Shown: positions 11,301 to 37,777 of the stretch, piece after piece | Layout of the letters: each line of letters starts with the position of its first letter | Numbering within the stretch: the stretch's first letter is position 1 | NCBI RefSeq assembly: GCF_032854445.1 | Contig: NC_088305.1 | Span: forward strand, 21,800,955 to 21,864,954 | Source: Liolophura sinensis | Taxonomy: Eukaryota; Mollusca; Polyplacophora; Chitonida; Chitonidae | DNA: 64,000 nucleotides | Reading direction: 5' to 3' | The notes under the pieces: model-generated | Database searches by the model: none | Told to the model about the DNA's origin: nothing | Seen by the model: the letters and a program-made list of their open reading frames with translations, nothing else | Made by a program: the position numbers and the translations under genes

Positions 11301-11596
11301 ATTTATTACCATATAAATATTTATCACAAGATATAATTTGTTAATATAAAAATGTTTATCTATAATGTTATGTATACATTTCTTGATATATTATTTTTAA
11401 AATATGAGGGTTTTCGAGATTTAACTGTTTTTGGTTATTCTAATCTGGTTTTAAACATGTGCAAACATTTGTTTCCATTTTTAATGTTATCACCACCATA
11501 TCGGAAACCTCAACCGCCTCGTGTTTCGACCTTGTTCTCGCCACGATATGGCTGAAATACTGCCGATGTGGCGTTAAACCATAATCATTCATTCAT

Positions 11597-14500: not shown

Positions 14501-15551
14501 ATAAATTTATATATACTGACGGGTCGAAGGATGGGGAGAAGGTTGCGGCTGCGGCTGTCTTAGAACAGCGGGTCACTTCTCTTCGTCTTCCATCCTTATC
14601 TTCAATCTTTTCTGCAGAGGCCAGAGCTATACTTCTGGCTTTGTCATATGTTTCTGCTGGGCATGCCCAGAGGGCTGTGATCTGCACGGACTCGCTCTCT
14701 TGCCTTTTGGCAATTCAGAATAATAAATTTAAAAATCCTTCCATTCTTGACATATTAGCCGTACATAAAAATCTAATTAAAAGAGGTAAAAATATTGTAT
14801 TCTGTTGGATACCAAGTCACATTGGTATCCATGGAAACACAGTCGTGGACAGGGAGGCGAAAGCTGCCCTTAATAAACCCATATCGAAGATGAAAATTTG
14901 TTACACTGATTTTAGATATCATATTCTTAAATATATTCGTCGCCTTTGGCAGGATGAATGGGATTTGCAGATCCACAACAAACTGCATGCTATTCATCCT
15001 GTCATTGGCAATAATTCTTATACTCTTAATAGGTCTCGTAGGGACCAAGTAGTTCTAACAAGGTGCCGTATTGGGCATTCTCGTCTAACACACAATTTTA
15101 TCCTAGATGGGAGCAGTGCTCCTGAGTGTGTTGGTTGTAATGCCCAGTACGGCATGAAACATATTCTCGTTGACTGTGTGGACTTTGCTCATATTAGGCA
15201 AAGATTCTACACAGTCAGCTCTATATTTGATTTATTTGACAGTGTCGCTGGCGATACTGTCATTAATTACTTAAAACATATTGGATTATATCATAAGATA
15301 TAATTTCATTTTATTTCATAGATATTTCTAGTTCATATATACATATTTGTGGTTTTCAAGTTTTTAAAGAGCTTTGATTGTTTTACCTAGTTTTAAACAT
15401 GTCTGTTATTTTTCATGTCTTTTGTATGTTCATACTTCAGTCTTGAAAACCATATACTGATTCCTGGTTTTAAACATGTTCTCGCCACGATATGGCTGAA
15501 ATATTGCCGATGTGGCGTAAAGCCATAATCATTCATTCATTCATTCATTCA
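11597..15551 (+). mobile_element. LINE-C: ORF2 plus 3' UTR unit between two copies of TCTCCCTCCATAA
   Basis: The unit begins exactly at the ORF1/ORF2 junction sequence TCTCCCTCCATAATGG and ends in an (ATTC)n tail followed by the same junction sequence again. It is nearly identical to the ORF2 parts of LINE-A. Two explanations fit: a 5'-truncated insertion whose cDNA end paired with the homologous target, or an unequal exchange between tandem copies. The 3' UTR (15304-15551) has the family's closing stem CGCCAC/GTGGCG. Confidence 0.8.
11609..15303 (+). pseudogene. LINE-C ORF2: endonuclease, reverse transcriptase, RNase H; one frameshift
   Basis: The ATG overlaps the TAA of ORF1 (TAATG). Domains in order: APE-type endonuclease (QWNCRGLK, LQETH, GDFNSHNPLWGS, SDHFPI; residues 1-230), reverse transcriptase (residues about 430-720 with GVPQGSILSP and YVDD), RNase H (about 950-1080) and a C-terminal CCHC-like tail. 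A one-base deletion near 14395 (CTTCTCCCCAACC against CTTCTCCCACAACC in LINE-A) shifts the frame just before RNase H; the sequence continues in the second frame to the normal stop at 15303. Otherwise open, so this copy is young. Confidence 0.9.
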
Positions 15552-16375: not shown

Positions 16376-16548
16376 AGGAATACTGTCAAGGTCTTATGAT
16401 CATCGGTATTTATTTAATAATTACCTCATAATCCCTCATTATAACGAACCTGGAACCTGGACTCGCTTCCCACGGCGATAGTCGGCTCTCACGCTAGGGA
16501 GCCGTCAGCCAGAGTGGAGTTAATGAGGTGCCCGTCACGTGATCCCAG

Positions 16549-16558
16549 TGACGTCACC
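16549..16558 (+). promoter_or_regulatory. CRE-type palindrome in left end of Kolobok-like element
   Basis: GTGACGTCAC lies 79 bases upstream of the P2X7-type gene's ATG. With the following CGTAAGAA it is the inverted counterpart of the site at 34706-34715. This is the consensus for CREB/ATF factors and may drive the gene; no TATA box was seen. Confidence 0.55.
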
Positions 16559-16637
16559 GTAAGAACGGGCCCATACTGAACAACACTGTTTCACATACCA
16601 CATACGATCTTAGGCGCGAAAATACCAAAATAAAATA

Positions 16638-19600
16638 ATGTCAGACTGTGAAACGGACATACTAGAAATTCCAATGTGTATACCACCTATAGACCCGTAC
16701 ATGTATGATCCTATACGAACGGATTCAGCGCGTGGAACCCATGAATTCAGCCCAGTAAACCGTTCCCCTCACTCATCCGACAGCGAGTCTGACCACGTCG
16801 ACAGCTGTCAGAAACCAGAAGATTTTCGGACCGACAATTTGACCTGGTGACTACATTTTATCTCAGTTAATTCCTTGCTATTTTCCGATTTGCTGGCACT
16901 ATATGGCCTTATGCTGGCCGCCGTGGCAGAAATGAAATATTCTTGAGTACGGCTTCAACAGCCTATCAGATAAATTGGTCGCAGGTATCCTGGCATTTTC
17001 AAAATATCACGGGAGTTAATACAGACCTTTAAATCACAGCATTTTAAGTGCAAAACTAGGTTTTGTTGAAGTTCACAAACAGAAAACGATAAGCATACTG
17101 TAATTTCTGGTTACTAGGCCTATAAGCCGTAGCTCTCAAATTATGGCCCGGTGTTTGTCACTTTTCTTTCCCTTCCTGTGTTATTTATCACTTTGTCCCT
17201 GCCGGTGCCTCAAGCAGGTTAGTGCCCTAATATCCTCGGCTTTGAGGTAATGCCTTGATTCAGAGGTCTGTGTTAACCCACATGTCAAATATTACGATTA
17301 AATCATAAGATTCAGTCTTTTGAGATTCACGTAAACTTGGTCTAAATGTCCGAATATGTAAGTAAAAATTTATCGAGGTGCATATTTGTACAACAGCAAA
17401 TATGTTACGCCGACAGCTGAAGCTTTGAATCCGCTTCTCATCGTATCAAGGAATCTGTACCAACATATGTACAGCCCTCGACATAAGGATAATTATGGTG
17501 ATCGAGAAATCGATCCCCCGACCTAACGTTCAGGTGATCGGACATTTGATCTCCCCCAAATTCTTTGGTAACCGATCGATCCCCTGTATCGATTACGTAG
17601 GTTTCGAGAACCAAAATTGTTCCTTGTAATATACAGGTATGCCGTGAAGTTCATGTACACAATGATATATATGTATGCTCTGCATTATTTAATTTTGTTA
17701 GAGGGCTTCCCGTCTGTTTTCAGAAGTAACTAGTCCCAGTCTCGCTGCAGTTGCTGGTACGCCGTCCATGAAACCCACTGGCAATCGCAGCGAAGTCCGA
17801 GTGGTGGGTTTAACTGGCGAATTGATTGGAGCAATGTCTATGGTGTTTGACGTACTGATCGTGTAAAAAATGAAGAATTTATCATTGTCACTACTGATCA
17901 CATTATTGTTGTATTTGTATTAGAAATAAACGTACCCAGTACTCCAAGCAGGTAATGAAATAATACAAATCCTGCTCTGGAAGGCATAATGTCTCCAGCA
18001 CGTTCCCGCGCAAAGCTGACTGCTGCGAGAGGGTCACACGGGGTGGGTAAGTTTTGAAGTTGCGTAAAGAAATGTCTTTCGAAAAGTAATGATACAACTT
18101 GTAAATGTTGCTTGAATATTCTCAATTCACTATTTCTACAAAACATGACGTGTCCCGATTGCTGCTACCACAGAAAATCAGCGGAACCAAGCATTAAATA
18201 ATAATGACATTAGTTCGAGTCGAAAACCCCCTACGCTAGCATGCTTTTGGACTCGCCCACACTTCCAGTCAATCAGTTACAGGCGGGGACTGCCACGGTG
18301 AAATTTAACCACTCAAAATTGAAAGTTTCGTATTCCTAACTTGTTATGCGATCTGTCTAAAGCAGACTTATGACTACCAGCCTGCGGTATATACGCATAA
18401 GTTATAGAACGTAATTATTGAATTTAAATACAAGGATTGATTGATGCATGTAGATCATGGCGATGTCTACAAACATTTCACTCACGCCATGTGGATTCGC
18501 AGTCAGTATTTTGGCAAGATAGGAGGTGAAGGAGAACATTGACTTTTCTACAATGAGGATAAATATGCATGACATATCTACCTGGCGTATCCGTTGCTAT
18601 ACCTATTTTTGCAAAAACTATTTTTCAAATGACTCATATCGGCCGGAGTTTTCGTTACTTCGCGTTGTTACCGTTTGGAGTTGTAATTGTATGTTAACAT
18701 ACCACGAAAGAACCAATGCTGGCGCAAGTCTTTGAAAAATAGCCTTCTGTACGTTTGTCTTTAATACAGGCGCAGTTGAATATGTAACAAAACCACACAA
18801 TCATACTTAAATGGTTTTAATGTAAAAGACATAACATATAAGACGTTATTGCATTGAAATGCCAGGTCCCCCGAGGTGTATGTCATCACACACACGACTT
18901 CGTTACAAACGTTATATATATATATATTATATGCATGTATTTAAGTTTGCGATAAAAGGTAAAAAAATGAGTTTAAATAAGTAATCAATGTGCAAGAATG
19001 ATACGACGTCCACACACATTATCATATATATTATACATGTATGTTGTAGAAATATTTTAGTTCAAAGCAAAACGTTAAAAATTCAAAACCAAATAAACGA
19101 GATCTGCACAAAAGTCATTCTTTCCTGTTGAAGTAATAACGTGTTGACGTGAAAAGTTCAGCCATGATTATGTAACAGTCAATCAACAAAGTCAGTGCAA
19201 GGCAAAGAACTAAATTTAATGACACCTAGCTAAAGTTTTACACTTTTATGTAGGCGATCTTGTTTTTAATCACTCAGAATCTCCTCTTCGAATTCCATCG
19301 GCATTTCCACTGATTCGACATCGCTTATTTCTGAATCATCAGACACACTGTCTGCGTCACTATCAGTTTCTGAAATATACAGATGACTGTCATCCTCTAA
19401 CAGAGGATTTCGGCTGGATGAGAATGGAGTGGGCATTATGGCTGGTCCAGGCTCGCTAGAACCTCCAGATTTGGCGACTTGCTTCGCCTTTCCACTTTTT
19501 CTTCTTGGTGTTGACAGATACTGTGACACTGCTCTATCCACCAGGCTTGTTTCATACTCGCTGTCCAGTTTTTCGAACGATGGCAGGTTTATCCTGAGTA

Positions 19601-22600
19601 CAAGCAGGTCATCCAGTGTACCCTTGCTCATGGACGTTCTGGCATCTGTCAAGGTCCGGCCGCAAACACTGAAACCGCGTTCCACCGTTGCAGAACTCCA
19701 AGCAAAACAAAGGCACAATTCTATCAGCAGTAGGATGTTGGGATACTTAGAGACATAATGCTGAAAGACTGTTTTCCACAGCTGCAAGGGGTTGCGGAAT
19801 TTTCTGTACTTCGCAGCAACAACGGCCTTCAGCTGTCTGAACTCCGATTGGGCCTTTTTCATGTCGTACTCATGATACCCCAGCGGCTCTTGAAAATGCT
19901 CACTCAGCTTCTGGATTTTGTCAAGACCAAATGTCTTTTCTTCGAAGTCCCAGCATCTGTGGTCAGCTATTTGAACAGATGCATAGATTTCTTGTTCAGA
20001 GAGGAAAGGAGCAAATCTCGCATCAATAGCTTCAGATATTGCTGGGATCAGAGTCTCTTTAACTCTCCGGACATTTGCTTTTCCTTGGCGCACAAACTTG
20101 ATGTCGTAGTCCTGTTTCACAATAGTGCAGTATTTTTCGACCTGTCTCTTTCGTTTTTCGTTTAGTTTTTCCTTGAAGGCAAGCGTCGCTGGCAAGTTTG
20201 TTGCTTTGGCCGATAGTTTCACACTGTCACTCTCGGCTGTCCCTTCCGTATCGAACGGCAAGTCTTCTTCAGTTGCCGTCAATTCACGAAGGTTGGTTTT
20301 TGCCTCTGAAATCGATTCAATGACGTCTGTTATTAGTGACGTTGGGGTTTGCAGGACGTATGACATTTGAGCTGTGACCCTCAGGACTTGCATGTAGAAG
20401 TTAAGACTGCTGAGATAGGAGTATGACAAGAACTTTCGTAGGTATCCACGGAGTTTTGCTACCGTTTCTGTCTTGCACGCGCCTGGTGTTTCTATCATAT
20501 TTTCACAATACAAGCAGAGGGGCAAAAAGTTAATCACCATGGCCTTGCATGCCCTGTACTTGTGATTTTGAAATCTCGTCCCGTGCGCCTTCGTGAAAGC
20601 GACGCAAGTAACGCCCAATGCGATTGCTGTCGCTGTGAATATTCGTTTGGCTTTGCCACTGTTTCTGAAGTGATAATACATTTGTGTCATGATTTCGTCC
20701 ACTTCTTCGAACGATTTGTCAGAGGCAAAGGCATCTTTAATGGCCAACTCCAGACGATGGTTTGAACAATGTACCACGAGCAGCCACTCTCGTTCAGCCT
20801 TCAGTTGGGTACATGCGCCATTATATTTCCCCATGTTTACACTGGCGCCGTCAGTGCAGATGCTCACCATCAGTTTGTCATGCCTTTCCTTCGGCACCTC
20901 ACAGGAATCCAAAAATGCCTGATCGTAGGCCTGCTTTAAACTTCGAGCATCTTCCCCTCCGATCTCGGCCATATCCTGGCACTTTACAAGGAGCTCTACA
21001 GTGCATCCGTTCACTGCAATTTTTGCATAGATTAGCTCCTTTTCTGAACCCGTCTTCCTGGCCTGGGAGCCGTCCATAAGGCCCGAGAAGAAGTTGGAGC
21101 GGAGCAGCATTTTTGCAATGTCCTGTCGGAGTATTGCGGCCATTATAGAAACGAACTGGCGACAACATTTGTCAGTGTCTTTTCCGCTTAACAGTTTGAT
21201 TCCATTCTTGCGCTGTAGCGTAACAAGACTACGAAAGTCAGAAAACGGCCTTTCATGCCGGACAATGCAAAGGGCGGTGTTGAATAGGTGCCTATATGCT
21301 GTGCTTGAAGTTTGGTCGATAAGAATATCAATGCGGCGTTGACCAGATCCACTGGGAGGCCTTAAACAAAAGGGAGAGAAAATCATTTAGAAACTCGAGC
21401 TTAAACATTACAAATTATAATCTATATACGATGAACAACACATGCACACCAGTGTAACTATATGCATACGGCACCTATATTTTAAATATTTTCGTGATTA
21501 TATTTAACAAGTTATTATTATATTCTACATTATTACATCAGTGTGTATCATTTTCCTATACAGTTACATTTATTTTAAACTTTAAATTTAATGTCTTTAA
21601 ATGGTACGTACCCTGCCTGTGGAGCACTGCTCGTTGATGCCACGGGTGATTTGCCAAATCTTTGCTTGGCCCAGTCATGCAGTCCACCAGGTTTGATATG
21701 ACGAGATAAGTTTCCTCGGTGGACGCACTCAACACCGTCTGCCAGGTTCACAATGCCATTAAACGCTGCACCTTTCACATTTCGCCTTGCCGCCTCTGCC
21801 CTGATAGCTGCCAAGTTGTCCGCACATATTTTGCACTGCAGTTTAGTGATATTACCATCACTGTCAGTTGCCAAAACTCTGAACTCTTCCTTGAAAGGCC
21901 ACTTTTCGAAGGTTTTTTGATGGACAGTCTCTGGCTTTTTGGTAGCCATCAAAACATATTTATACACAAATAACGATTAAAATCTAAGCAATATTCGTCA
22001 GCTCCTCAAAAGATTCTGCTCGACGTAGCGCCAATATTCCGCTCTGGACTGTGACAAACATCTACAGCGCGGCGCCTCTGTCAATATTCTAATTAGCAGT
22101 TAAAACGATTGGCTATTATTTCTGGCGACCGTTGACCCAACGGTGGAATGCCATGGACTTTAACCTTGTTTTGATTACCTTGTTTTGCGATCGAGTAAAC
22201 GGACACATGTACACATATATTGCATTCTATTAATACATACATGTACATTGTCTTTCCAGCAGAACCGATATCAATAGAATAAGAGATGGACAGATATGAA
22301 TATGAAGACAAAAACTTAGCTGGCATTGTTTTAATCGCCTGAAAGAGACGCGGCACCAGATTTCTAGACAGCAGCAGAACAAGGGACCTTTGAGTTTAGG
22401 TTTGCAAGCCAATTCAAGCAAAATAATCCATGCAATGCATTTTAAGATTGGCCTTGTGATATATGATACAAGTACGTATTCTCTTCAAAGTTTTCATTGA
22501 CAGTTATGAAATTCCTAGATCGAAGTACAACAGACGCGTATTGGAACAACCTCACCACCCCTTTAGTTTCCAATAATTGGAATCGTCCAGATCACAGCAT

Positions 22601-25600
22601 ATGCATGCCTGTCAGTGTTGTTGGACCCTAAACTTCTGGTTGGTAAAGATACATGGGTATCAGTGAACGTTAAACTACACCTTCTGTGCGCCGCGCTTGG
22701 ACAGTGACCCAATTAACTGTTTTATTTTTGTGATGACCAAATGTCTTTTGCGTCCTGACCCACGGCTCATAGCGCATGCATGCATTTCCCTTCGCGCCGC
22801 ACTGCGACAAGCTCCCCTTTGACTGAGCGGTTGCATTTTCGGCAGCGGCAGACACTACGTACACGTTCACTCCTAATCTGCCGAAATTATTTATCGGTCC
22901 CCTGTGGCTTTTATGGTAACCGACGTTTCGGTCCCCCTTTTTTCGAATGAGGTGATCGACACGTGATCGGTCGGTTCGATCTCCTCTTATGTCGAGGGCT
23001 GATGTATGATCTTCTCTGAATATCAAATCTGTTTATTTTCAGGTGTGATTGTGAGAACTGTGATATTATGCCAACTAACGTAGAATGCCTTTGCTGTGAG
23101 GAAGTGCCAAGGATAATAGAAATGACTGACGAAGAGCAGCTAGATATAAATTGCATCACAGAACACGAAGGCTTTATTGTAAACTGTACAAACAGACATG
23201 TCATCCTAACGTCCATTTATGAGTTTTTGGAAGACTATGGCCCCACCGATGACAATGATCCACCACACAAGTAAGTGACATGGAATAAATTTCTAATTTA
23301 ATAGCATTTATACGAATGTGTAGTACATAATTGCATGTATTAGACAAGAAAATGAACATCTAGAAATGAATCGAAGCCAGCATGATTTAATTTCAGAGCT
23401 CCTGGCAACATTACTCCATGACTGCTGCCCCCGTGGGGTTTCCGGGGTGATAAGAATAGGACCTCAGCCCTCTAGGCAAGCTTGTCGTAAAAGTCGACTA
23501 ACCTAGAGCTCTCCTGTGTGAGCCCGGTGAATATAATAGGCTCACATCTTCTCGGTTGTGTGAGAGGCAACCGGGGAGCGACCTGTTTGCCGTGGGTTGC
23601 GACCCGTAATCTACGAGGACGGGATCCTGGTGGCTGAGGGTTGGTTGGTCTTGCGAGATCCTCACGCCCAACACGCCACTTTGGCCCTTACTTGGAGTGA
23701 GACGGGAGGTCGGATGGGCCCGGTCCGATCAATCGGCTTGGTCACGCCTTGCCTCTGCGTAGTCCCAACATTTTTCCATGACACTATTCCTTAGAGAAAT
23801 TGCTATTTCTGAAATTTCGTTTGTGTGACTACGATTGAGGCGGTGGCTCATGGGTCAATCGAGTGGTGTGTATTTGATGTGCCACCTTCTTCTTTGCTTA
23901 GGAGACAGAGGTGCTCGTGGTGGGGAATTGGGTGTGCATGTTAAGGCCACCTATTCGAGTATACCTCATGTGGAGTCCTTGATGCGTTTTCCTGCTGGGT
24001 ATTCCCGGGTTCAGGCATCGCCCTTGTTGGCACTCCGTGGTGGGTGGGGGACACGTGGGGTGAATTTTTATTGATCTACCATGTCTTCATTAAACCTTTC
24101 CCCAAATGTTTCTAAAAAACGAAAAAATGAAGTTTTGATAGATACGGACAGTGGGTCCAATAATTGGCCTGCCTTTATTGTCCTGTCTACAAAAAACAAC
24201 ACAAGACCTGCATGCAAACTGGACCCCTTCTTGCTTAAAAAATGTATAGAAGGATCGGCAGGACAAGTTAAACAAGTTAAAAAGCTTCGGTCGGGCGATG
24301 TTCTGATCGAAGTATTTCGTAAACAGCAGGCTCTTAATTTAATGTCCATAAATAAAATTGCTGATTTTACTGTTGTTGTGTCTCCTCACACAACATTAAA
24401 TTCTAGTCAGGGAGTAATCCGAGATAGAGATCAGGACCTTGCCGACTTCACCGAGGAACAGATATGTTCTGAATTAAAATCGCAAGGAGTTGTTAAAGTC
24501 AAGCGATTTACAACAAAAAAAAGGCGATAACATTATAAAACTGAATACTTATTTGCTGACTTTCAACAATCCATCTGTTCCTCAATCGATCTACATTGGC
24601 CCGTATAGTGTTCGAGTGGACCTATACATACCTAATCCAACGAGGTGCTTTACATGTCAAAAATTTGGGCATGGCAAGGGCCAATGTAGAAATCAGTTGG
24701 TGTGTTTCAGATGTGCAGGAGAAGGCCACGAGGGCTTCGACTGCACTAAAACAATAAAATGTTTCAATTGTGGCGAAGCCCATATGGCCTCCTCTAAGGA
24801 CTGTTCTCTTTTTATTAAAGAGAAACAGATTATTACATTAAAGGTGCAAAATAACATTACTTACCTAGAAGCACGTCGCCTGATCTCCGCTCAGAGCACT
24901 CCCCTGAAAACTTCATTCGCCAATGTAGTCAAGAAAGTGTCCACATCGGTTGGCACTCAAACATCTATAACTTGGCCCATTGGTGATGACAAACCTAAAA
25001 CAATAACTCTACCACAATTAGTTAAACCTGTAAACCAAGAAATGACTTCTTGTTCTACGCAGACAATACAACCCGATATCGAACGAAAGAACCATAACAG
25101 TACATCTGCTCCTGCTGATAAAAATAAATCTAAGGTGGGTCAAAAAGGGTCTAATCAACAAGATCGTAAACCTAGTGGACAATCAAACCGCACGTCTAAG
25201 GCCACTAGGGATCCCATTCAAACTTATAATAAGTTTGGATCGTTGGAGGACGTTGGTCCTTTAGCATCAGATGCGGATGTGATGGATACATCACCCGCAT
25301 CAGGGAGATCTAACAGCGCATCTCCAAGAAAGGGTCGTCCACGGTCCAAACACAAAGATAAATCTCCTATACGTCTCCCTCCATAATGGCGATATACGAT
25401 AAAATTATACAATGGAATTGTCGAGGTCTTAAGGTAAATTTTATTGAAATAACACAGCTTGTTCAATCTTTAAATCCAGCTGCCCTCTGTCTTCAGGAAA
25501 CTCACCTGAAGACATCTGACAAAGATAAATTATCTCTTAAAAATTATACACTTTATAGCAATTATTCTGGTGAAGAAGAGCGAGCTTGTGGCGGCTCCTC

Positions 25601-28600
25601 TATTTTCGTAAATAATAATATAATTCACAGCCCTGTTGATCTCGTTACTGAGTTTCAGGCTGTGGCCGTCCGTGTTTCTTTGTCGGAAACAGTTACTTTA
25701 TGTTCGATCTATATTCCTCCTCATTCTTCTTTGTCAATCTCTCAATTACATAACTTGAAAGAACAACTCCCATCCCCTTTTATAATAATGGGGGATTTTA
25801 ATGCCCATAACCCTCTATGGGGCAGTAATAATATAAACGCTAAAGGCAAAACTTTGGAAGATTTTTTATCGAAAGATGAACTGTGTTATTTCAATGATGG
25901 TTCTAATACCTATTTACATCCAGGTAATGGCGCTTATTCTGCTATCGATCTCACTATCACGGATCCATCACTTCTCCTTGATTTCTCTTGGAAGGTGCAT
26001 GACGATCTTTGTGGTAGTGACCATTTTCCTATAATCCTAGAACATATCACTTCTAATTCTTTAGAACGTGTAGCTAGGTGGAAATTCGATAAAGCAGATT
26101 GGATCGCATTTGAGATGTTCTGTGAGGCTGATATCACTCCAGAGACTCTCAAAGCAGCAGATGATCCTATATTAAAATTTAATGAGCTTGTTTTACAAGC
26201 GGCTGACAGAACTATACCTAAGACCTCGACGAATCCACAATCCAAAAGCAAACCCTGGTACGACAATGACTGTCGTAAAGCCATAAAGGACCGTAAAAAG
26301 GCTGAACGAAGATTTAATCATTGTCCTACTGATAACAACTTAAACCAGGTTCGTAATTTTAGAGCTAAGGCTCGTCGGTTACTCAAGTCCAAGAGACGAT
26401 CTTGTTGGCGGAACTTTGTTTCAGGCATTACGTCAAAAACACCCATGCGTAAGGTCTGGAACATGGTTCAGAAACTTAAGGGCAAAAATAATAAAGCCAA
26501 AGTCCAGCATTTAAAAGATGATGAAGATAATATATTAACCTCTCCATCTGATATAGCCAATAAATTAGCTGAGACAATTTCCAACAAATCTTCTTCTGAG
26601 AATTACACTAAAAAATTCCAATATATTAAAAACCAGAAGGAGAAAACTAAATTGCCCTTTTCTTCTAAAAATTTAGAAGATTATAATTGTCCATTTAATA
26701 TCGAGGAACTTAGAACTGCATTAAAAAAGGCCCACGATACTGCTTGTGGTCCTGATAATGTATATTATAAGTTTCTGAACCATTTACCACCTGAGCCACT
26801 GGAGACTCTCTTGGACTTGCTTAATGATATTTGGATAACTGGTAATTTTCCACCGTCATGGAGGGAGGCGTGTATTATCCCGGTTCCCAAACCGGGTAAG
26901 GATCATACTGATCCAAATAATTACCGTCCCATAGCTCTTACCAGCTGTGTCTGTAAGACTATGGAACGGATGATTAATGATAGACTTGTTTGGTTTCTTG
27001 AAACCAACAAGTTACTTTCTAATATTCAGTGCGGTTTTTGTCAAGGTAGATCCACTATGGATCACCTTGTTCGATTTGAAACCTTTATTCGCGATGGCTT
27101 CATCAATAACGAACATGTGGTGTCCATATTTTTTGACCTTGAAAAGGCCTACGACACCACATGGAAATATGGTATTTTAAAAGACATCGCGGATATGGGT
27201 CTTAAAGGTCGCTTACCTTTATTTATATCTCAATTTTTATCCGATCGTCAGTTTAGGGTACGGGTTGGGTCCACTCTTTCTGACTCTTATGAGCAGGAAA
27301 TGGGTGTACCCCAGGGCAGCATTCTATCACCAACTCTGTTTAGCATAAAAATAAATAGCCTAGCAAAAACATTAACATCGGGCACAGAGGGTTCTTTATA
27401 CGTGGATGATTTCCTTATATGCTACCGAGCTAAGAATATGAATAACATCGAACGTCAGTTGCAGCTTTGTCTCAATAAAATCGAGAAATGGGCAACTGAA
27501 AACGGTTTTAGATTTTCAACGTCTAAAACCGTCGGTATGCATTTTTGTAATAAACGGAAACTTCATCTTGACCCTGAGCTTAATTTTTGTGGTAAACAGG
27601 TTAAAATTGTTGGAGAAACAAAATTTTTAGGTATAATATTTGATAGTAAGCTATCCTTTATACCTCATCTTAAAATGCTTAAGGCTAAATGTACAAAGGC
27701 TCTTGATATAATTAAGGTCGTGTCTAGCACCAATTGGGGTGCTGACCGATCAGTTTTACTTAATTTATATCGTTCTCTGGTGAGGTCTAAATTGGACTAT
27801 GGATCCATCATTTACGGTTCCGCTAGGAAGTCGTACATTAAAATGTTGGATCCTGTTCATCACCAAGGTTTGAGGCTCAGCCTTGGTGCTTTTAGAACCT
27901 CACCAGTAGAAAGTTTATACGTGGAGGCTAATGAACCTTCTTTATACAACCGACGTATAAAACTAAGCCTTCAATATAGTACAAAGCTTAAAGCTCATCC
28001 AACAAACCCTGCCTACGACTGTGTTTTCAATCCATTATATGTAGACAAATATACTAAATGTCCTAACAAGATCCCTTCGTTCGGTCTTCGTATACAGGAC
28101 CATATTGTGGGAGGTAACATCAAGCTGGAGGATATAGCTCCGGTGTCTTTTCCGGAGTCTCCTCCATGGCTTCTCCCACAACCAAAACTAATATTTGATC
28201 TACGTAAATATAATAAATCGAATATAAATCCTCTTATAATTCAGCAAGGTTTTGCTGAAATTAAAGCTAATTATACGGATTATAAATTTATATATACTGA
28301 CGGGTCGAAGGATGGGGACAGGGTTGCGACTGCGGCTGTCATGGAGCAGCGGGTCTCTTCCTTTCGTCTTCCATCCTCTTCTTCAATATTCTCTGCCGAG
28401 GCCAGAGCTATACTCTTGGCCTTATCATATGTTTCTTCTGGGTGTGCCCAGAGGGCAATGATATGCACTGACTCGTTGTCTTGCTTATTGGCAATACAGA
28501 ATAATAAATTCAAAAATCCCTTGATCCTTCAAATTTTAGCTATACATAGGAAATTAATTAGAAGAGGTAAAGATATTATATTCTGCTGGATACCAAGTCA

Positions 28601-29831
28601 TATTGGTATCCATGGAAACACAGTCGCAGACAGGGAGGCGAAAGCTGCCCTAAATAAACCCATATCCAAGATAAAAATCCCTTATACTGACATGAAGTCC
28701 AATATTCTTAAATATATTCGTTGCCTTTGGCAGGGTGAATGGAACTTGCAGGCCCATAATAAACTGCATGCTATTCATCCGGTCATTGGCTATAATTCAT
28801 ATACACTTAATATGTCTCGTAGAGACCAAGTCGTTTTAACCAGATGCCGTATTGGACATTCTCATCTGACACACAATTTCATCTTGGATGGGAGCAGTGC
28901 TCCCGAGTGTGTTGGATGTGATGCTCAATATGGCATCAAACATATTCTGGTTGACTGTGTAGACTTTGCCCATGTTCGGCAGAGATTCTACACGGTCAAC
29001 TCTATATATGATTTATTTGACAGCATCGCTGGCGATGTTGTCATAAATTATTTGAAGGCCATTGGCCTATATCATAGAATATAAATTTTAATTGTCATCG
29101 ATATCTATAGATGAACAGTTATATATATTTATACATGTACTCTAACCCTGGTTTTCGAGTTTTAAATCTTATTTTTCTTTTATTCGATTTTAATCACGTC
29201 TGTACTTTTTGTTTTACTTTTGGTGTTCATATTGTCATATCGAAAACCTTAACCGTCTCTTGCTTTCACCTTGTTCTCGCCACGGTATGGCTGAAATATT
29301 GCCGATGTGGCGTTAAGCCATAATCATTCATTCATTCATTCATTCCATGACTGCTGTATCCGTGTGGGCTAACAATTTGATATCAGCTCAGTTTATTTGC
29401 ATTGAAAAGTAGTGAGCAACTTTTGCTAAAAAAAAACATAAAAATAAAAAAAAAACTCAAGACAGGGTAATGATGAAAATATTAACACCAGACCTGTATA
29501 CATGCATAATCAAGTATACAAAATACAACAGATCTGTTTATTTTACCAACTATATCAATTGTCTCATAGCACCAACCCCTTCTCCACCCCACATATACAT
29601 AGATCTATAAATAAACAATTTTAGCTTTATATCTGCAAACATGTAAGATATTTGTGTCTTTTCTCATCCAGGTTGTACAGGTTTATCGCATACAGGAGAT
29701 TTACACGATGGATATGGCACAAGCTAGGCAGAGGAAACCGAAAGCCAATACCATTGTGTGCCGTAAAGAAGATTCGGGAAGCCTTCCCCAGCCAGGAGTA
29801 CTGCGGATTTCAATACCCCAAGTTTCCGTAG
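16638..29831 (+). CDS. P2X7 C-terminal ('ballast') domain-like protein carried by the TTAA transposon, three exons
   Basis: Exons 16638-16846, 23043-23270 and 29672-29831 have standard borders (CCTG|GTGACT, TTTTCAG|GTGTG, ACAA|GTAAGT, CATCCAG|GTTG) and sum to 597 bases, 198 codons and a TAG. Exon 1 gives an acidic, Ser/Pro-rich leader (MSDCETDILEIPMC). Exon 2 is Cys-rich (CDCENCDIMP, ECLCCEE, NCITEHEGFIVNC). Exon 3 has YRFIAYRRFTRWIW and PLCAVKKIREAFP, ending QYPKFP. This pattern of cysteines and aromatic/basic motifs matches the cytosolic zinc-binding ballast domain of vertebrate P2X7 receptors; there are no channel or membrane segments. Intron 1 holds the 17472-23001 hAT and intron 2 holds LINE-D, yet every codon is open. 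The function is unknown; it may act in transposition or counter host defence. Confidence 0.8.
16847..17471. other. Kolobok-like element intron sequence, no gene seen
   Basis: This is the first part of intron 1 of the P2X7-type gene before the hAT insertion. I see no open frame, repeat or RNA-like structure here. Confidence 0.6.
17472..23001 (-). mobile_element. hAT transposon with 5-bp target duplication
   Basis: The ends read CAGCCCTCGACATAAGGA (17472-17489) and, inverted, CAGCCCTCGACATAAGAGGA (22982-23001). ATGTA is duplicated at 17467-17471 and 23002-23006. Subterminal regions carry further inverted matter (GATCGAGAAATCGATCCCCCG on the left, GTGATCGACACGTGATCGG on the right). A single two-exon transposase gene lies on the minus strand. 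hAT elements usually duplicate 8 bp; 5 bp is a minority type. Sequence 17490-19265 (gene 3' side) and 21968-22980 (gene 5' side) shows no other convincing gene. Confidence 0.85.
19266..21949 (-). CDS. hAT transposase (ZNF862-like), two exons, open throughout
   Basis: Exon 1 runs 21949-21612 (MATKKPETVHQKTFEKWPF), exon 2 21360-19266, joined CAGG|GTACGT to TTTAAG|GCCTCC, giving 810 codons plus TGA. The N-terminus holds a BED-like zinc-binding region (CKICADN ... HRGNLSRHI). The catalytic core includes GLMDGSQARKTGSEKELIY, ICTDGASVNMGKYNG and VVHCSNHRLELAIKD, then an alpha-helical insertion. The C-terminal hATC dimerization region reads LCFAWSSATVERGFSVCGRT, and the tail is acidic and Ser-rich. 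The same family occurs in decayed form at 56664-58790. No stop or frameshift was found, so the gene could still be active or was until recently. Confidence 0.88.
23415..23427 (+). repeat. Target-site duplication of LINE-D, left copy
   Basis: TCCATGACTGCTG is repeated at 29344-29356 straight after the ATTC tail; the first T could belong to the tail. Confidence 0.92.
24081..25386 (+). pseudogene. LINE-D ORF1, CCHC protein with one frameshift in an A-run
   Basis: ATG at 24081 (MSSLNLSPNVSKKRKNEVL). Frame one is open to 24530 and frame two from about 24490 to the TAA at 25384-25386. The switch lies at the A-run 24514-24521 (ACAACAAAAAAAAGGCG), where LINE-A and LINE-B read ATGAAGAAATCTGG. Zinc knuckles: CFTCQKFGHGKGQC, CFRCAGEGHEGFDC, CFNCGEAHMASSKDC. 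The C-terminal region is low in complexity (Lys/Ser/Asn) and ends IRLPP. Either a simple slip mutation or, less likely, a site read by slippage. Confidence 0.85.
25386..29084 (+). CDS. LINE-D ORF2: endonuclease, reverse transcriptase, RNase H (1232 residues, open)
   Basis: The start ATG shares its A with the ORF1 stop (TAATG), suggesting stop-restart translation. Endonuclease at residues 1-230 (QWNCRGLK, LQETH, GDFNAHNPLWGS, SDHFPI); reverse transcriptase at about 430-720 (NYRPIALTSCVCKTMERM, FFDLEKAYDTTW, GVPQGSILSPTLFS, YVDDFLICY, KFLGIIFD); RNase H at about 950-1080 with catalytic D/E/D/D (YTDGSKDG, AEARAILL, CTDSLSC, VADREAK); and a C-terminal tail with ECVGCDAQYGIKHILVDC. One departure is FCQGRST where other copies have FRQGRST in the thumb-side motif. 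The frame is uninterrupted, so the enzyme may still be competent. Confidence 0.93.
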   Translation: MAIYDKIIQWNCRGLKVNFIEITQLVQSLNPAALCLQETHLKTSDKDKLSLKNYTLYSNYSGEEERACGGSSIFVNNNIIHSPVDLVTEFQAVAVRVSLSETVTLCSIYIPPHSSLSISQLHNLKEQLPSPFIIMGDFNAHNPLWGSNNINAKGKTLEDFLSKDELCYFNDGSNTYLHPGNGAYSAIDLTITDPSLLLDFSWKVHDDLCGSDHFPIILEHITSNSLERVARWKFDKADWIAFEMFCEADITPETLKAADDPILKFNELVLQAADRTIPKTSTNPQSKSKPWYDNDCRKAIKDRKKAERRFNHCPTDNNLNQVRNFRAKARRLLKSKRRSCWRNFVSGITSKTPMRKVWNMVQKLKGKNNKAKVQHLKDDEDNILTSPSDIANKLAETISNKSSSENYTKKFQYIKNQKEKTKLPFSSKNLEDYNCPFNIEELRTALKKAHDTACGPDNVYYKFLNHLPPEPLETLLDLLNDIWITGNFPPSWREACIIPVPKPGKDHTDPNNYRPIALTSCVCKTMERMINDRLVWFLETNKLLSNIQCGFCQGRSTMDHLVRFETFIRDGFINNEHVVSIFFDLEKAYDTTWKYGILKDIADMGLKGRLPLFISQFLSDRQFRVRVGSTLSDSYEQEMGVPQGSILSPTLFSIKINSLAKTLTSGTEGSLYVDDFLICYRAKNMNNIERQLQLCLNKIEKWATENGFRFSTSKTVGMHFCNKRKLHLDPELNFCGKQVKIVGETKFLGIIFDSKLSFIPHLKMLKAKCTKALDIIKVVSSTNWGADRSVLLNLYRSLVRSKLDYGSIIYGSARKSYIKMLDPVHHQGLRLSLGAFRTSPVESLYVEANEPSLYNRRIKLSLQYSTKLKAHPTNPAYDCVFNPLYVDKYTKCPNKIPSFGLRIQDHIVGGNIKLEDIAPVSFPESPPWLLPQPKLIFDLRKYNKSNINPLIIQQGFAEIKANYTDYKFIYTDGSKDGDRVATAAVMEQRVSSFRLPSSSSIFSAEARAILLALSYVSSGCAQRAMICTDSLSCLLAIQNNKFKNPLILQILAIHRKLIRRGKDIIFCWIPSHIGIHGNTVADREAKAALNKPISKIKIPYTDMKSNILKYIRCLWQGEWNLQAHNKLHAIHPVIGYNSYTLNMSRRDQVVLTRCRIGHSHLTHNFILDGSSAPECVGCDAQYGIKHILVDCVDFAHVRQRFYTVNSIYDLFDSIAGDVVINYLKAIGLYHRI
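29278..29343 (+). promoter_or_regulatory. LINE 3'-terminal stem-loop and (ATTC)n tail
   Basis: CGCCAC (29278-29283) can pair with GTGGCG (29307-29312) around a 23-base loop, and a second possible pair is TATGGCT with AGCCATA. The same elements close LINE-A (37976-38010), LINE-B, LINE-C and LINE-E. A conserved 3' hairpin before a short tandem repeat is the usual recognition signal for reverse transcription in such LINEs; that role is inferred. Confidence 0.6.
29345..29671. other. Kolobok-like element intron, A-rich, no gene seen
   Basis: Rest of intron 2 of the P2X7-type gene after the LINE-D insertion, with an A-rich stretch near 29429-29455. Nothing coding or structured was recognised. Confidence 0.6.
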
Positions 29832-29833
29832 AT

Positions 29834-32800
29834 TCATACATCATTGGAGTTTGTTGTCTTCGAAAATCGTGATTTATGTCTCTCTATAAGACAAGCTTTG
29901 TCCACAGGTACGAATCCTGACGTAGTAGGGGCAGGTACCGACAGGTAGCTACTGAGAGCCTCTGAAGCAACCTGGTAGGATGGTAGATCTTTTCTTCGCT
30001 GGACGAGGTTATGGATCAGCAAGTCCACGTATCCTACCATACATAGAAGGATATAAAAAAATATTTTAATATATTTAAACAGATCATGCTTATTCTGTTT
30101 TTCAATATTTCCTCAAGAAACTCCCATAAGAAGGTTGCATCAGACAAATTGTTAAAAATAGCACTGACTAAAAAGATTTCTTTTTTTTTACTTATGTTAA
30201 CTATTCTTTTACTTTTTTATTTTGCTGATTTTTTCACATGTATGACTTAATTTTTAATTCTAAAATTAATCAATAGCAGCATCTCAAGTCTGTCTCATAA
30301 CAACCATGAGTGGCAAAAAACAATTCGTAGGTTATCTTGCGCAGACCCCCTACGTAGTAAGCTTTTAATAACCATCTGACTTCCTGTGGGGTTAACAAGC
30401 GCCAGCTATTGCAAACCATTTGTCAATCACAGTTGGACCAATTACACTGTGTATTTTGCTTAGTTAGGCTGTGTTACCCGAATTGTTTTAATAAAGTATT
30501 CCAAAAAGCCGTACTTGCCTTTATATTTTATGATCACACATTTTAGTTTATTACTAATCATCTCATATCCTGTGTTGTCAACAAAGAACACTTGTTACAT
30601 CTACGATACTGTCATTGATATACACACATTTTGACTGCTCAACATAAGTGTTCAATTTGTTTGTAAATATTCTAATCTGAAAACCTGTACTTGTCTGTCT
30701 ACATTAGTTACATGTATATCACAAAACTTACCAAATGACGGACCAGTGCTAATCGGCTTCACTACAGCCTCCAGACCTTTCTTTGCTTTTGGATAGCAAA
30801 GCTGCCAACGAACTCTGCCATCTGATGTCGTGTCACGTGGCTTCCTGCTGTTCTCATTGTAATGTAGTCCAGCTAAGTACAATCTGAAAAACATAAATTT
30901 CACAGGTGAGTTACGAGCATTAACAAAATGAGTCTCATGTTTTTTAGTTGAGATATTTTATCGTGAGCCTACTGATTGTGTTTTTCTTACTATGTCTTTA
31001 TTTAGGATATGGTGGGTTTATTTTCGGACAGCCATAATCCCTGTGATTTACTGGGGAATATAAAGCCCTGCACACCTAACATTTTTGCACATTTTGAAAG
31101 TCAAAGAAAACCTCATACCTGGCCAGCATGGATTGGAAGAAGAAGTGTGTACTCTTTGGTGCAAAATGGTTGACAATATTGTGGTACACCTCGAGACCAT
31201 ATGTCTGATGGAATGGAGACAACTTCTCGATGTCCTTCATTAGGAATGGGCTGGTGACGACACTACATAGGAGCTTGTATGGGCGGGATCCTGCAAACAA
31301 TATGTTTATAAGTCAAAACATTCATTACAGATAAATATTTAAACAGGTTCATTAACTGACATTATTCATACCTACAATGATTACAGACATAAAAAAATGT
31401 TATCTTTTAAATTAGAAATTTAACAATTTCCAACAACCGACATTTTGCGCTATTACAAATCCCATAAAATTACTCAAGGGTAGATAAATAATTCCAAACC
31501 ATCAAAACACCAATACCAAAACTACCAATGGAAATACATAAAAATGTATGCAGTTAAAGAATGTCAGTTCTGACATGTACCTTCTTCCATCCAATTTCTT
31601 TGGTTATCCTCTAAAGGGCCATGTCTGCACTCCGGATACTTCTCACTAGGGTGTGTGTGGATGTTCCGGATATGGCGGGTAAGCGACTGCCACTTTGCCA
31701 GCTTCATCTCGCCATCATTGGCAGAGGTGGACGCCGCCCAGTATAGGTGTGTTGAAACACTTTTTATCCAAGGCTTAATAGCCTCTGCCCCCTTTTCTTT
31801 GCCAAACCCTCTAACTTTTTCGATACATCTGGGGAGGTAAAACAGAATATCTAACCAACAATGACTTGTTTGACAACCAACAATGACTTGTTTACAACAA
31901 ATAGGTTTCACTCTAATAGTTTAATGCCTACCGTCAATCTTAGTACCTGACATTAGGAGCAAGTACAATCAACGCTCACAATAAGTGGCATAGCTGACAG
32001 TCTTACCTTTTGCAACATGCCGTACATCGAAGTTGTGAATAATCTCCTCTTCTCCTTTCATAAATTTTTTCACCATGACATGTCTGTCAGTGATGAGTGA
32101 CTTGATATTCAGTCTTTCTGCTTTCAACTTTAGTAGCCCACGCTTCAGGCCCTCAAGCTCCATATGCGTTGAGCCTTTTACTTCATTACACTGTTGAAGA
32201 GAAGAAAAATAATATACATTCAAACCTTTGTGTGAAATGGAGGTATTTATTGAATGAATCTTTTATCAATCACAGGTAAGAATTAGAAACAGAAAAATCA
32301 TCCGTAATCCGAAAGACACAAAAACAGTGATAAAAATTTAGAATTCTTTGAGGGGTTACCTGTATTACCTGAATGTCCAGAACTGTCTGGGAGTCTAGGT
32401 CCATGAGGCTATAAAACCCATACTTTGCACTGTATCCTGGGGAATCACATCGGGCATCACCTCCCAAGATCAGCTGCTTGCCAAGTCTCTCCACAACATT
32501 TCGCTCTCTCTCAAAGTTCCAAACTTCCACCACAGAAGGGACAAGGTAAGATTTCTGGATCCGGAAAAATGTCCGTTTGCTGAACGTTTGAAGCTTTAGT
32601 ATCTCGAAGAGACGAATAACCTGTAGGCAGATGGAAATATGTATGATAAATTATTTCCGGTATTGAATGATATGAGTGTATTCTTAGTACTCATCAATAT
32701 CTATACTGTGTTGCATTCCTATTGGTATATAACAAATACATATTGCTTTCACATACCTTGGAAGCATTTGATCCACTGAAAAATATGGCAGCAGCCGTAG

Positions 32801-34568
32801 TTAGGTTTCCCCAAGGAAGGCTGTTGTGGGTTGACTGGCTCTTCCATTCCAACACATGACCAGCAGAACATGTTGACATGGTAGAAACCATCATGCCTTG
32901 GCAGTGATGAACCACTGTATCACAGTGTCTTCCACACCTCTGACAGGTCTTCAGCAAAGCACATAAAGCTGACTCAGACACCAGGAACTGTTTTTCGTCT
33001 GAGGGCCTTACAACTTCCCCAAGCGGGAAAGCAACTGTTTCGTCATCACTTTCACTGCCGCTGTCGTCTGGGTCACTTTCCACTAAAAAATCTGGATCAT
33101 TTTGAAAGGTATCAACTTCATCTTCGTCATCGCTCATTTCATCATCACATTCTCTCAGAGGTGGCTTTGCAACCGGTTTGCCTTTCAATAAATCACACTG
33201 GATCCCCACTGTTCGCACTTGTGGCTTTGCTTGAATCCGCCGTGTCCTATAGAAATAGGTAAATAATATCACATCATTATTTCCAGTGTGCACTTGTTTT
33301 GAATCTTTGCAGCCATAGGTGATACAGTTCAGGTACAATAAAATGCACCTAGATCAACATACAAACTTTATCAAGAGAAGACAAACTTAAATGACACATT
33401 ATTTACTGACATATATCTTTGGCCTAATAGCAAAAATAAGTTTTACATCATGTTATGTATGTATACACGTCATGAAAGATAGTCACCTCTTAGATATTGT
33501 CTTCAAGGGTGCCTTTCCAATTTGGGTTGCCACTGATCTAGTTACAGGTGCTTCTATAACAACCTTCTCTGTCATCACTTGAAAGCTTTCAGCTTCAGAA
33601 GGTAAATGGCTATTTTCTCCAGATGTCTCAGGATCAGCATTTTCCTTGTCTTTTTCGAATTCCTCCAGGAGTTCATCCAGTGCCTAAATAGTGAAATAAG
33701 TGTTTAAATACAATATACATAAAAAAATAATAATTTTATGAACTAATGCTTATTGATTATGTTAAACCACAGTAAAAAATATTCCACATATGGTAGCATT
33801 GTGGTAGCTTTAATACTAGGTAGAAGTGAACTGGTGAATACTATTGTTTCTATAAAAAAAATGTAAAGATGTGACAAACTGTTTATAATTTAACATCTTC
33901 AGTCGCAGTTATACAGGGCTAAACTGAAAAACCATACCAAAAGTACATATAACTTTGCAGACACGCCGCAGGATTATTATAAATTAAAAATAACACCGTA
34001 TACTACTTTTTAATAGTAACTGGACTACATGACAACATAGCTATATATAGGCCTATATATTATCATTATGTACTCTATACTTTGCTCTGAGACTTTTACT
34101 GTAGTTTTCAACAGTTTTATTGTTGAAAAAATTAACTGGGAATATTCAGTTTTTTTACAATATTTGCGAAATCATTTTGACACCTACCCTCTTCCTGTTA
34201 CGTTTTGTGAAAGCTTTTCTGTGGGGTGTGCTGACAGGTCGAACAGACTGTTGTTGTTGTTTCGGTACTTCAGACAAAGGACTCGATATCTCAATTGACA
34301 GGGGAATGTCCGGCACAGCACCTGTTGTTAGCCGTGCTACTGCATTTTCATAGCCCAGGCTCGCCAACTACTCTGGGTCTCGATCAAACATGCATTTGGA
34401 GAAATGCTTACTGCACAGTTTGTGGTGGTACTTGAGATCGAAGTCCCTCTTGCAATAATGAAGCCAGACTTTCCTCGTGGTCGCATCTTTTGGAAAGGCA
34501 AAGAAAGAAATTCCACCTCCCTTGACAAGCTGACTGTTGCATCCGTAAGCTGCACAGATCACAGGCAT
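29834..34568 (-). pseudogene. THAP-domain transposase of the Kolobok-like element, nine exons, disabled
   Basis: Exons: 34568-34188, 33683-33487, 33246-32757, 32620-32369, 32190-32007, 31828-31581, 31290-31119, 30883-30732 and 30033-29834, with good GT/AG borders. Exon 1 encodes a THAP zinc finger (MPVICAAYGCNS, FFAFPKDATTRKVW, LCSKHFSKCMF) that would bind the element ends. Exon 3 has an acidic linker, a CQRCGRHC zinc motif and NSLPWGNLTTAAAIFFSG. Exons 4-8 form the catalytic core: LGGDARCDSPG, SLITDRHVMV, FDVRHVAKG and LEVYHNIVNHFAPKS supply candidate D, D and E. An in-frame TAG after DRDPE in exon 1 (34368-34370) and a one-base slip in a G-run near 31798 in exon 6 disable this copy. Its stop lies two bases from that of the opposing gene. 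Confidence 0.8.
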
Positions 34569-34705
34569 AACTACCTTTCAAAAATTTCTCAAACAACAGC
34601 AAATTTGGGTCGAAATAAATGCCTTTTGGTCGCGTGTTTATATAGTATAATTTATAGCCTTCTATTATAGAACTTCTGCACGCATGGAGCCAGAGTCTTC
34701 TTACC

Positions 34706-34715
34706 GTGACGTCAC
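34706..34715 (-). promoter_or_regulatory. CRE-type palindrome in right end of Kolobok-like element
   Basis: GTGACGTCAC, 138 bases upstream of the THAP transposase ATG. Together with CGGTAAGAA on the minus strand it mirrors the left-end site at 16549, so each gene has one. Confidence 0.55.
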
Positions 34716-34901
34716 GGGCTCAGCAGCCTCGCTTTGAAATTCACAATATGCATATTCAGCCGAGCGGTATTCGTCGCCGGTTGCATCAGAACGACTACAA
34801 GCAGGCCGTTTGTGGTTACAGGGGCCCAAATACTATCAATATGATCTTTTTAAACAGTTTGGAGGCACAAATAATTTATTTTCTTGACAGTATTCCTTTA
34901 A

Positions 34902-37777
34902 CAGCAGCTGATAGAACGATACCTAAGACCTCGACAAATCCAAAATCCAAAAGTAAACCCTGGTACGACGATGACTGTCGCAAAGCCATAAAGGATCGCA
35001 AAAAGGCCGAGCGCAGATTTAATCATTGTCCTGATAATAATAATTTAAACCAGGTCCGTATATTCGGAGCTAAGGCTCGCCGATTAATTAAATCTAAGAG
35101 ACGTTCTTGTTGGCGGAACTTTGTTTCAGGCATTACGTCAAAAACACCCATGCGTAAGGTCTGGAACATGGTTCAGAAGCTTAAGGGCAAAAACAACAAA
35201 GCCAAAATTCAGCATTTAAAAGATGGCGATACCCTATTAACATCGCCATCTGAAATAGCGAATAAACTAGCTGAAACAATATCTCAGAAATCTTCTTCTG
35301 AGAATTACACTTCTGAGTTTCGACGTATTAAAATACATAAGGAGAAAATTAAATTGCCTTTTTCTTCTAAGAATTTAGAAGATTATAATCGACGTTTTTC
35401 AATTGAGGAACTTAAAACTTTTCTTAAAAAGGCACACGATACTGCGTGTGGCCCTGATAATATATATTATAAGCTTCTGAATCATTTACCATCTGAGCCA
35501 CTTGAGACTCTCTTAGATTTACTTAATGACATTTGGCAAACTGGTAATTTTCCGCGGACTTGGAGGAAGGCGTGTATTATCCCGGTCCCTAAACCGGGTA
35601 AGGATCATACTGATCCAAATAATTACCGTCCCATAGCTCTTACCAGCTGCGTCTGTAAGACTATGGAACGGATGGTAAATAATAGGCTTGTTTGGTTTCT
35701 TGAAACCAACAAGTTACTATCTAATATACAATGTGGTTTTCGTCAAGGTCTGTCTACTTTAGATCACCTTGTCCGTTTGGAAACTTTTATTCGTGACGGT
35801 TTTATTAATAATGAACATGTGGTGTCGATATTTTTTGACCTTGAAAAGGCCTACGACACCACATGGAAATATGGTATTTTAAAGGACCTTTCTGATATGG
35901 GTCTTAAAGGCCGCTTACCATCATTTATATCCGAATTTCTATCTGATCGTCAGTTTAAGGTACGGGTGGGGCCCACTCTTTCTGATTCGCATGAGCAGGA
36001 GATGGGTGTTCCCCAGGGCAGTATTCTTTCGCCAACACTGTTCAGCATAAAAATTAATAGTTTAGCTAAAACGTTGACATCTGGAACTGAGGGTTCTTTA
36101 TACGTAGATGATTTCCTCATATGCTACCGTGCTAAAAATATGAATAACATCGAGCGGCAACTGCAGCTTTGTCTCAACAAGATTGAGAAATGGGCAGTTG
36201 CCAACGGTTTTAGAATTTCTACATCTAAAACCGTCGGTATGCATTTCTGTAATAAACGGAAACTTCATCTAGACCCTGAGCTTAAATTTTGTGGAGAACC
36301 AGTGAAGATTGTTGGAAAATAAATTTTTAGGGGTTATATTTGATAAAAAATTATCCTTTATACCTCATATAAAAATGCTTAAAGCTAAATGTACAAAGGC
36401 TCTCGATATAATTAAGGTCGTGTCTAGCACCGATTGGGGTGCTGACCGATCAGTTTTACTTAATTTATATCGTTCTCTGGTGAGGTCTAAATTGGACTAT
36501 GGGTCCATCATTTATGGTTCTGCAAAGAAATCCTATCTTAAAATGTTGGATCCCGTCCATCACCAAGGTTTGAGGCTCAGCCTTGGTGCATTTAGAACCT
36601 CACCAGTAGAAAGTTTATACGTCGAAGCTAATGAGCCTTCTTTACATCTCAGGCGTATAAAACTATGCCTTCAATATACTACAAAGCTTAAAGCACACCC
36701 AACAAACCCTGCCTACGACTGTGTTTTCAATCCGTTATATGTAGACAAATATAACAAATGTCCTAATAAGATCCCTTCGTTCGGTCTTCGTGTTCGGGAC
36801 CACGTTGTGGGAGCTGGCATCGAGCTTGAGAATATAGCTCCGGTTTCTTTTCCGGACTCCTCTCCCTGGCTTCTCCCACAACCTAAATTGATATTTGATC
36901 TACGTAAACATAACAAAAGAAATACGAATCCTCTAATAATTCAGCAAAGTTTTTCTGAGATAAAGGCTAATTATCCAGATTATAAATTTATATATACTGA
37001 CGGGTGGAAGGATGGGGAGAAGGTTGCGGCTGCGGCTGTCTTAGAACAGCGGGTCACTTCTCTTCGTCTTCCATCCTCATCTTCAATCTTTTCTGCAGAG
37101 GCCAGAGCTATACTTCTGGCTTTGTCATATGTTTCTGCTGGGCATGCCCAGAGGGCTGTGATCTGCACGGACTCGCTCTCTTGCCTTTTGGCAATTCAGA
37201 ATAATAAATTTAAAAATCCTTCCAGATATTAGCCGTACATAAAAATCTAATTAAAAGAGGTAAAAATATTGTATTCTGTTGGATACCAAGTCACATTGGT
37301 ATCCATGGAAACACAGTCGTGGACAGGGAGGCGAAAGCTGCCCTTAATAAACCCATATCGAAGATGAAAATTTGTTACATTGATTTTAGATATCATATTC
37401 TTAAATATATTCGTCGCCTTTGGCAGGATGAATGGGATTTGCAGATCCACAACAAACTGCATGCTATTCATCCTGTCATTGGCAATAATTCTTATACTCT
37501 TAATAGGTCTCGTAGGGACCAAGTAGTTCTAACAAGGTGCCGTATTGGGCATTCTCGTCTAACACACAATTTTATCCTAGATGGGAGCAGTGCTCCTGAG
37601 TGTGTTGGTTGTAATGCCCAGTACGGCATGAAACATATTCTCGTTGACTGTGTGGACTTTGCTCATATTAGGCAAAGATTCTACACAGTCAGCTCTATAT
37701 TTGATTTATTTGACAGTGTCGCTGGCGATACTGTCATTAATTACTTAAAACATATTGGATTATATCATAAGATATAA
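34902..37777 (+). pseudogene. LINE-A ORF2, reverse transcriptase and RNase H part, frameshifted
   Basis: Resumes directly after the right TTAA with AAD RTIPKTSTNP, covers the rest of the endonuclease-reverse transcriptase linker, the reverse transcriptase (YVDD near 36109), RNase H and the C-terminal tail to the stop at 37775-37777. A two-base deletion near 36313 (GTTGGAAAAT against GTTGGGGAAAAT) and a short deletion near 37225, inside RNase H, break the frame. TDGW replaces TDGS at the first RNase H motif. Confidence 0.88.

Follow-up and report, generated by a model that had tools for sequence, protein, structure and literature searches.

A probable Kol0 Kolobok transposon with a P2X7 ballast-domain gene in the chiton Liolophura sinensis

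Kolobok transposons of the Kol0 lineage encode a transposase and a second protein, KolX, which according to the available parts of Kojima and Bao (2022, PMC9587614) resembles residues 476-595 of P2X7 and has the ballast fold; the same parts report the two genes together in Kol0 families from other phyla, regard nanor as a likely domesticated KolX, and derive P2X7 from a P2X4-like gene that became fused to KolX. Rump et al. (2020, PMC7016195, available parts) described ballast proteins across animals as products of one or few (<10) genes per species with no large families, reported the invertebrate genes as linked to two markers in an “ancestral synteny”, and noted a guanosine site in P2X7. Here, a stretch of 64,000 nucleotides (the window) from the chiton Liolophura sinensis (contig NC_088305.1, positions 21,800,955 to 21,864,954) was analysed, and the element at positions 16376 to 34897 was identified, with a probability of about 0.92, as an autonomous-type Kol0 Kolobok transposon carrying KolX as a standing accessory gene, the Kol0 assignment being judged from KolX. 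The link between P2X7 and KolX is already published, and the window adds a clear new example; the suggestion of a first-pass annotation of this DNA that a transposon supplied the P2X7 domain was not new, as the same conclusion is printed in PMC9587614. In the literature searched, the term KolX occurred only in that paper, as did, from 2022 on, the combination of P2X7, transposon and ballast.

The element is bounded by two exact copies of the inverted repeat AGGAATACTGTCAAG, each flanked by TTAA (Table 1). The window also contains uninterrupted retrotransposon copies that match the joined flanks (79 + 80 bases), at 12341-12499 (98.7%, ungapped), 26118-26275 (88%, ungapped), and 63391-63540 (81%, one gap). 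Since the joined flanks are continuous sequence in these sister copies, the element was inserted at a single TTAA inside a non-long terminal repeat (non-LTR) retrotransposon, and mobility at TTAA is shown by the anatomy and the empty sites. The pattern TTAA plus AGGAATACTGTCAAG (at most 1 mismatch) was present at 47 genome sites (24 + 23), against 0 for the reversed control pattern. In the window, the 15-mer with up to 3 mismatches was found 4 times against 2.1 expected, neither rarer nor commoner than chance; the element is not a chance arrangement because of the 47 genome end sites against 0 in the control, and in the window it is the two exact TTAA-flanked copies that count. The termini were AG...CT (5'-RR ... 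YY-3', unlike piggyBac) in the window family and in a divergent family.

The KolX-like gene contained three exons with GT/AG junctions and 198 codons with no internal stop. Its product matched PF20478 (P2RX7_C) at 43.5 bits (cut-off 23.5, E 4.4e-11), which was the sole domain matched in the 198 residues, and no P2X channel part was present. When the window protein was used alone as the query, no PDB chain matched at E 0.001, and a search with a 6-sequence profile matched the ballast domain. The arginines at the P2X7 R546 and R578 positions were identical in all 39 aligned relatives, and the H547 position was variable, being F in the window copy and Y (16), H (14), K (8) or P (1) among the same relatives. 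A structure model of a Solemya relative, built from 40 of the 64 proteins gathered, showed the ballast fold at a predicted local distance difference test (pLDDT) score of 77; it replaced a first model from 5 sequences, which was poor (mean pLDDT 53). The product is like the P2X7 ballast domain (PDB 6u9v and others) in its fold (by the relative's model), in seven cysteines and in the two arginines, and differs in that it lacks a channel, stands alone inside a transposon and belongs to a group in which the H547 position varies. No relative was found in the viral contigs searched. One eukprot protein, P0055 (320 residues), is a gene model that joins the ballast motifs to other sequence of unknown kind, and it may be a chimeric annotation across transposon genes, like the Ixodes THAP-ballast model of Rump et al. 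(2020).

The transposase gene contained nine minus-strand exons, running from 34568 to 29834 with splice phases assigned by eye, and it lies tail to tail with KolX, the two stop codons being 2 bp apart. Exon 1 matched the THAP domain PF05485 (E 7.5e-14), and motifs of DDE type were identified by eye in exon 4 (D), exon 5 (D and DVRH, the latter DVWH in the copy on C10) and exon 7 (E). No Pfam model matched the transposase core; a public 359-residue gene model corresponds to exons 3-5 at 99% and itself had no Pfam match. The first-pass annotation had proposed a three-exon open gene of the P2X7 C-terminal type inside the inverted ends of a TTAA-type THAP transposon, opposite its transposase, and all of these points were upheld by the exact ends, TTAA flanks, empty sites, splice junctions and the two profile matches. 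The element resembles the Kolobok-1_XT type of the Kol0 lineage in its TTAA target, 5'-RR/YY-3' ends, putative DDE-type transposase and KolX with the cytoplasmic ballast fold of P2X7. With KolobokP it shares the Kolobok transposase superfamily, and it differs in carrying KolX instead of a His-Me nuclease and in the absence of the long terminal direct repeats (about 450 or 660 bp) that mark KolobokP, as no same-strand repeats were found in the C10 copy at E 1e-3.

The copy at C10:50423-57465 (7,043 bp) had both ends, TTAA on both sides and no inserts. Its KolX had the three exons, each of the nine transposase exons was matched, and the identity of this copy to the window pieces was 98.5-98.8%. 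A further 13 copies with both ends (at most 3 mismatches) were TTAA-flanked within the copy DNA extracted, and a search with the right end gave 32 genome matches. Transposase exons 3-5 were present at 90% identity or more at three loci (the window on C11, C4 and C10), and KolX exons 1-3 were matched at all three, exon 3 of the C4 locus being 74% identical with one stop. The tail-to-tail layout recurred in divergent families. Ten copies of about 1.6-1.9 kb (L014-L022 and L024) kept both ends and KolX exon 1 and were without KolX exon 3 and most of the transposase; they are internal deletions.

Genome-wide, the KolX protein search produced 96 matches, grouped into 53 loci, many partial or decayed, and all such match counts are lower bounds. 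A transposase core hit lay at most 8 kb away (15 kb for the window) at 17 of these loci, family ends were nearby at 26, and either was nearby at 35; a random genome place has about a 0.3% chance of lying near such transposon parts. In the opposite direction (8 kb, or 18.5 kb for the window), a KolX match was found within 8 kb of 18 of the 25 transposase loci and 24 of the 29 right-end loci. Two Pfam ballast hits, C10:25900471 and C13:2589762, lie outside the 53-locus count; convergent transposase exons were present at C13:2589762, and at C10:25900471 (L039) one ballast exon and no transposase were found in the 10 kb read. The proposal that KolX is a standing second gene of a Kolobok-like family passed most checks, the three close loci, with the C10 copy among them, all joining both genes.

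Comparison of KolX with four older copies gave ratios of nonsynonymous to synonymous substitution (dN/dS) of 0.21 (121 codons, Fisher p 2.9e-8), 0.19 (70 codons, p 4.7e-5), 0.35 (63 codons, p 0.020), and 0.45 (70 codons, p 0.085). Near-identical copies, reported apart, had 0 to 5 changes with no silent excess. Excluded from the comparison were L021 and L024 (0.52 each), whose alignment seems to pass a deletion junction, L050 (0.31), which has overlapping reading frames (two), and L005, L006, L008, L042, L043, and L045 for saturated silent sites; L030/L046 and L035/L051 each denote a single locus, counted once. In the dN/dS comparison, which the first pass had proposed, KolX is under purifying selection between subfamilies, and this constraint, together with the lack of silent excess in near-identical copies, is the pattern of a gene that is maintained in the active lineage and drifts once a copy has been inserted.

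Several results weigh against this identification. The ballast fold was modelled on the Solemya relative and not on the window protein as spliced, the selection tests include two of four that are weak taken singly, and a wholly open transposase was present in none of the copies read, the window copy having an in-frame stop after THAP (exon 1) and a frame break (exon 6), and the C10 copy, open at both of these sites, a different frame break, in exon 3. The first pass had asked whether other copies hold both genes: all three close copies do, the C10 copy among them, and the ten deleted copies do not. The copy at C4:3645806, 97% identical at the right end, had no KolX match within 8 kb and is one of 5 such right-end loci among the 29; transposase exon 1 and most of exon 2 were present, and because the match breaks off past exon 2 it is a truncated copy. 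No KolX was found within 8 kb of 7 of the 25 transposase loci (6 if the two Pfam hits are added); these were 29-41% identical and may represent other Kolobok lineages. Neither transposase core nor family ends were nearby at 18 of the 53 KolX loci. Three of these 18 were 98-99% copies of the C4 transposon family, two of them with the common left end TTAA|AGTAAAGGACCG and different flanks, and another, L056 on C16, was bounded on both sides by TTAA and the 12-bp end AGTAAAGGACCG, inverted. The reading covered these four, and there may be solo host genes among the other 14 (C1:88976910, C11:12489691, C13:26480632, C2:14236582, C6:37335787, C6:38950735, C7:2917942, and seven of eight on C16).

As an active system, the THAP/DDE transposase would cut at the 15-bp ends and insert at TTAA, as expected from its family. 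KolX consists of an acidic N-terminus (of low model confidence) and a zinc-binding ballast fold, as in P2X7, and is most probably a standing accessory protein that selection maintains in an active family and that drifts once copies are dead. Its likeliest role, at about even odds, would be that of a zinc-stabilised partner working alongside the transposase in the transposition complex. A regulatory role, in which KolX would limit transposition or protect the element from silencing by the host rather than being needed for the cut, is somewhat unlikely by comparison; the zebrafish relative nanor, hypothesised to act in transcription (as recounted in the available parts of PMC7016195), is in keeping with such a role. 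So is the position of KolX as a separate gene on the opposite strand with a separate ballast fold.

The P element transposase is a THAP enzyme with a guanosine triphosphate (GTP) cofactor. By analogy, KolX could conceivably be a guanine-nucleotide-responsive subunit of the transposition complex, in which case the P2X7 guanosine site would be left over from the control of a transposon, and the “ancestral synteny” of Rump et al. would be the transposase gene travelling with KolX; this is regarded as doubtful. The identity of both arginines in 39 of 39 relatives and the linkage at 18 of 25 transposase loci are consistent with it, and against it count the other guanine-site residues, which are not kept outside mammals (PMC7016195, available parts).

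It is very improbable that KolX comes from a host gene which the window family captured a single time and carries as passive cargo, although stand-alone ballast proteins are annotated “P2X purinoceptor 7-like” in many animals and some KolX loci had no transposon part nearby. The same convergent pair was present in families with as little as 43-47% identity in KolX exon 3, one of which has other ends, and among the loci read, the 96 matches included no gene that was clearly single-copy, unlinked and built of the same three exons. The first pass had named gene-less copies beside such a host gene as the case that would overturn its reading; the short copies without the full gene were also without most of the transposase. 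The several nested elements in the region might speak for an assembly artefact or for unrelated pieces nested by chance; this reading is refuted by the clean C10 copy elsewhere and opposed by the end-site count, the ungapped empty sites and the canonical splice junctions.

Two later insertions lie in the KolX introns of the window copy. The hAT-type element in intron 1 has a 5-bp duplication (ATGTA) at 17467-17471 and 23002-23006, with a hAT dimerisation domain within 19266-21386, and the C10 copy has the empty site. The non-LTR retrotransposon in intron 2 is flanked by the 12-bp duplication CCATGACTGCTG at 23416-23427 and 29345-29356; the C10 copy aligns contiguously across the insertion point, and the exact 12-base target was not found in it. 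The window copy is dead at its transposase and is also split by these insertions, and its KolX is probably still open because the copy is young and the intron inserts leave the codons untouched. The earlier description of a broken transposase beside an open KolX with two large intron insertions was thus accurate.

Table 1 Coordinates of the features of the element in the window
Feature	Position	Strand	Remarks
Left target site duplication TTAA	16372..16375	.	Flank sequence and empty site
Left terminal inverted repeat AGGAATACTGTCAAG	16376..16390	+	Exact
KolX-like gene exon 1	16638..16846	+	Also in C10 copy
hAT-type element in KolX intron 1	17472..23001	-	16-bp inverted ends CAGCCCTCGACATAAG
KolX-like gene exon 2	23043..23270	+	Cysteines C71, C73, C76, C87, C88, C107
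Non-LTR retrotransposon in KolX intron 2	23428..29344	+	Endonuclease and reverse transcriptase domains
KolX-like gene exon 3	29672..29831	+	Stop codon 29829-29831
Transposase exon 9	29834..30031	-	With stop
Transposase exon 8	30730..30882	-
Transposase exon 7	31118..31288	-	Likely catalytic E in LEVYHN (by eye)
Transposase exon 6	31579..31828	-	Frame break in window copy, open in C10 copy; start approximate
Transposase exon 5	32008..32190	-	Likely second catalytic D and DxxH motif (by eye)
Transposase exon 4	32360..32620	-	Likely first catalytic D (by eye)
Transposase exon 3	32757..33245	-
Transposase exon 2	33486..33683	-
Transposase exon 1	34188..34568	-	THAP domain; one in-frame stop in window copy
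Right terminal inverted repeat AGGAATACTGTCAAG	34883..34897	-	Exact
Right target site duplication TTAA	34898..34901	.	Flank sequence

One non-LTR retrotransposon is present in several window copies (11585-15303, 24075-29084, and about 34900-37232), two of them with long open frames (941 and 1240 codons); one copy was the insertion target of the Kolobok element and another is nested inside it. Elsewhere in the genome, the older copies at C5:12950268 and C5:12965901, 15.6 kb apart, have the common flank ATACTTAA, which points to a probable segmental duplication of the locus. At C13:2560497-2625690, divergent matches to KolX and the transposase follow one another, several at steps of about 9.7 kb, which suggests that a second Kol0-like family is arrayed there in tandem. 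On a 759-kb contig, ballast exon matches that are nearly identical occurred eight times in C16:23162-434361, several of them at a spacing of about 23.7 kb, and a larger segment seems to be tandemly repeated; the one locus read of the eight (L056:1961-4254 including the TTAAs) is an internally deleted relative of 2.3 kb with perfect 12-bp inverted ends, TTAA, a ballast exon and a THAP exon (E 1.1e-13).

In relation to the Kol0 families in the available parts of Kojima and Bao (2022), the present family comes from a chiton, with an exon-level map of the two genes and the nested insertions and a comparison of several copies. ZCD or nanor-like proteins, reported from molluscs and other animals in the available parts of PMC7016195, belong to the same domain family, and the 53 grouped loci in this genome, 35 of them near transposon sequence, fit badly with a view of small host gene families of fewer than 10 per species. 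The additions of the window are thus the chiton family, the exon map, the copy-level linkage and this locus count. The findings suggest that ballast sequences can reach dozens per genome and that many mollusc “P2X purinoceptor 7-like” annotations are transposon genes, and the chiton copies give copy-level support to the published idea that the ballast of P2X7, a vertebrate immune receptor, came from a transposon gene.

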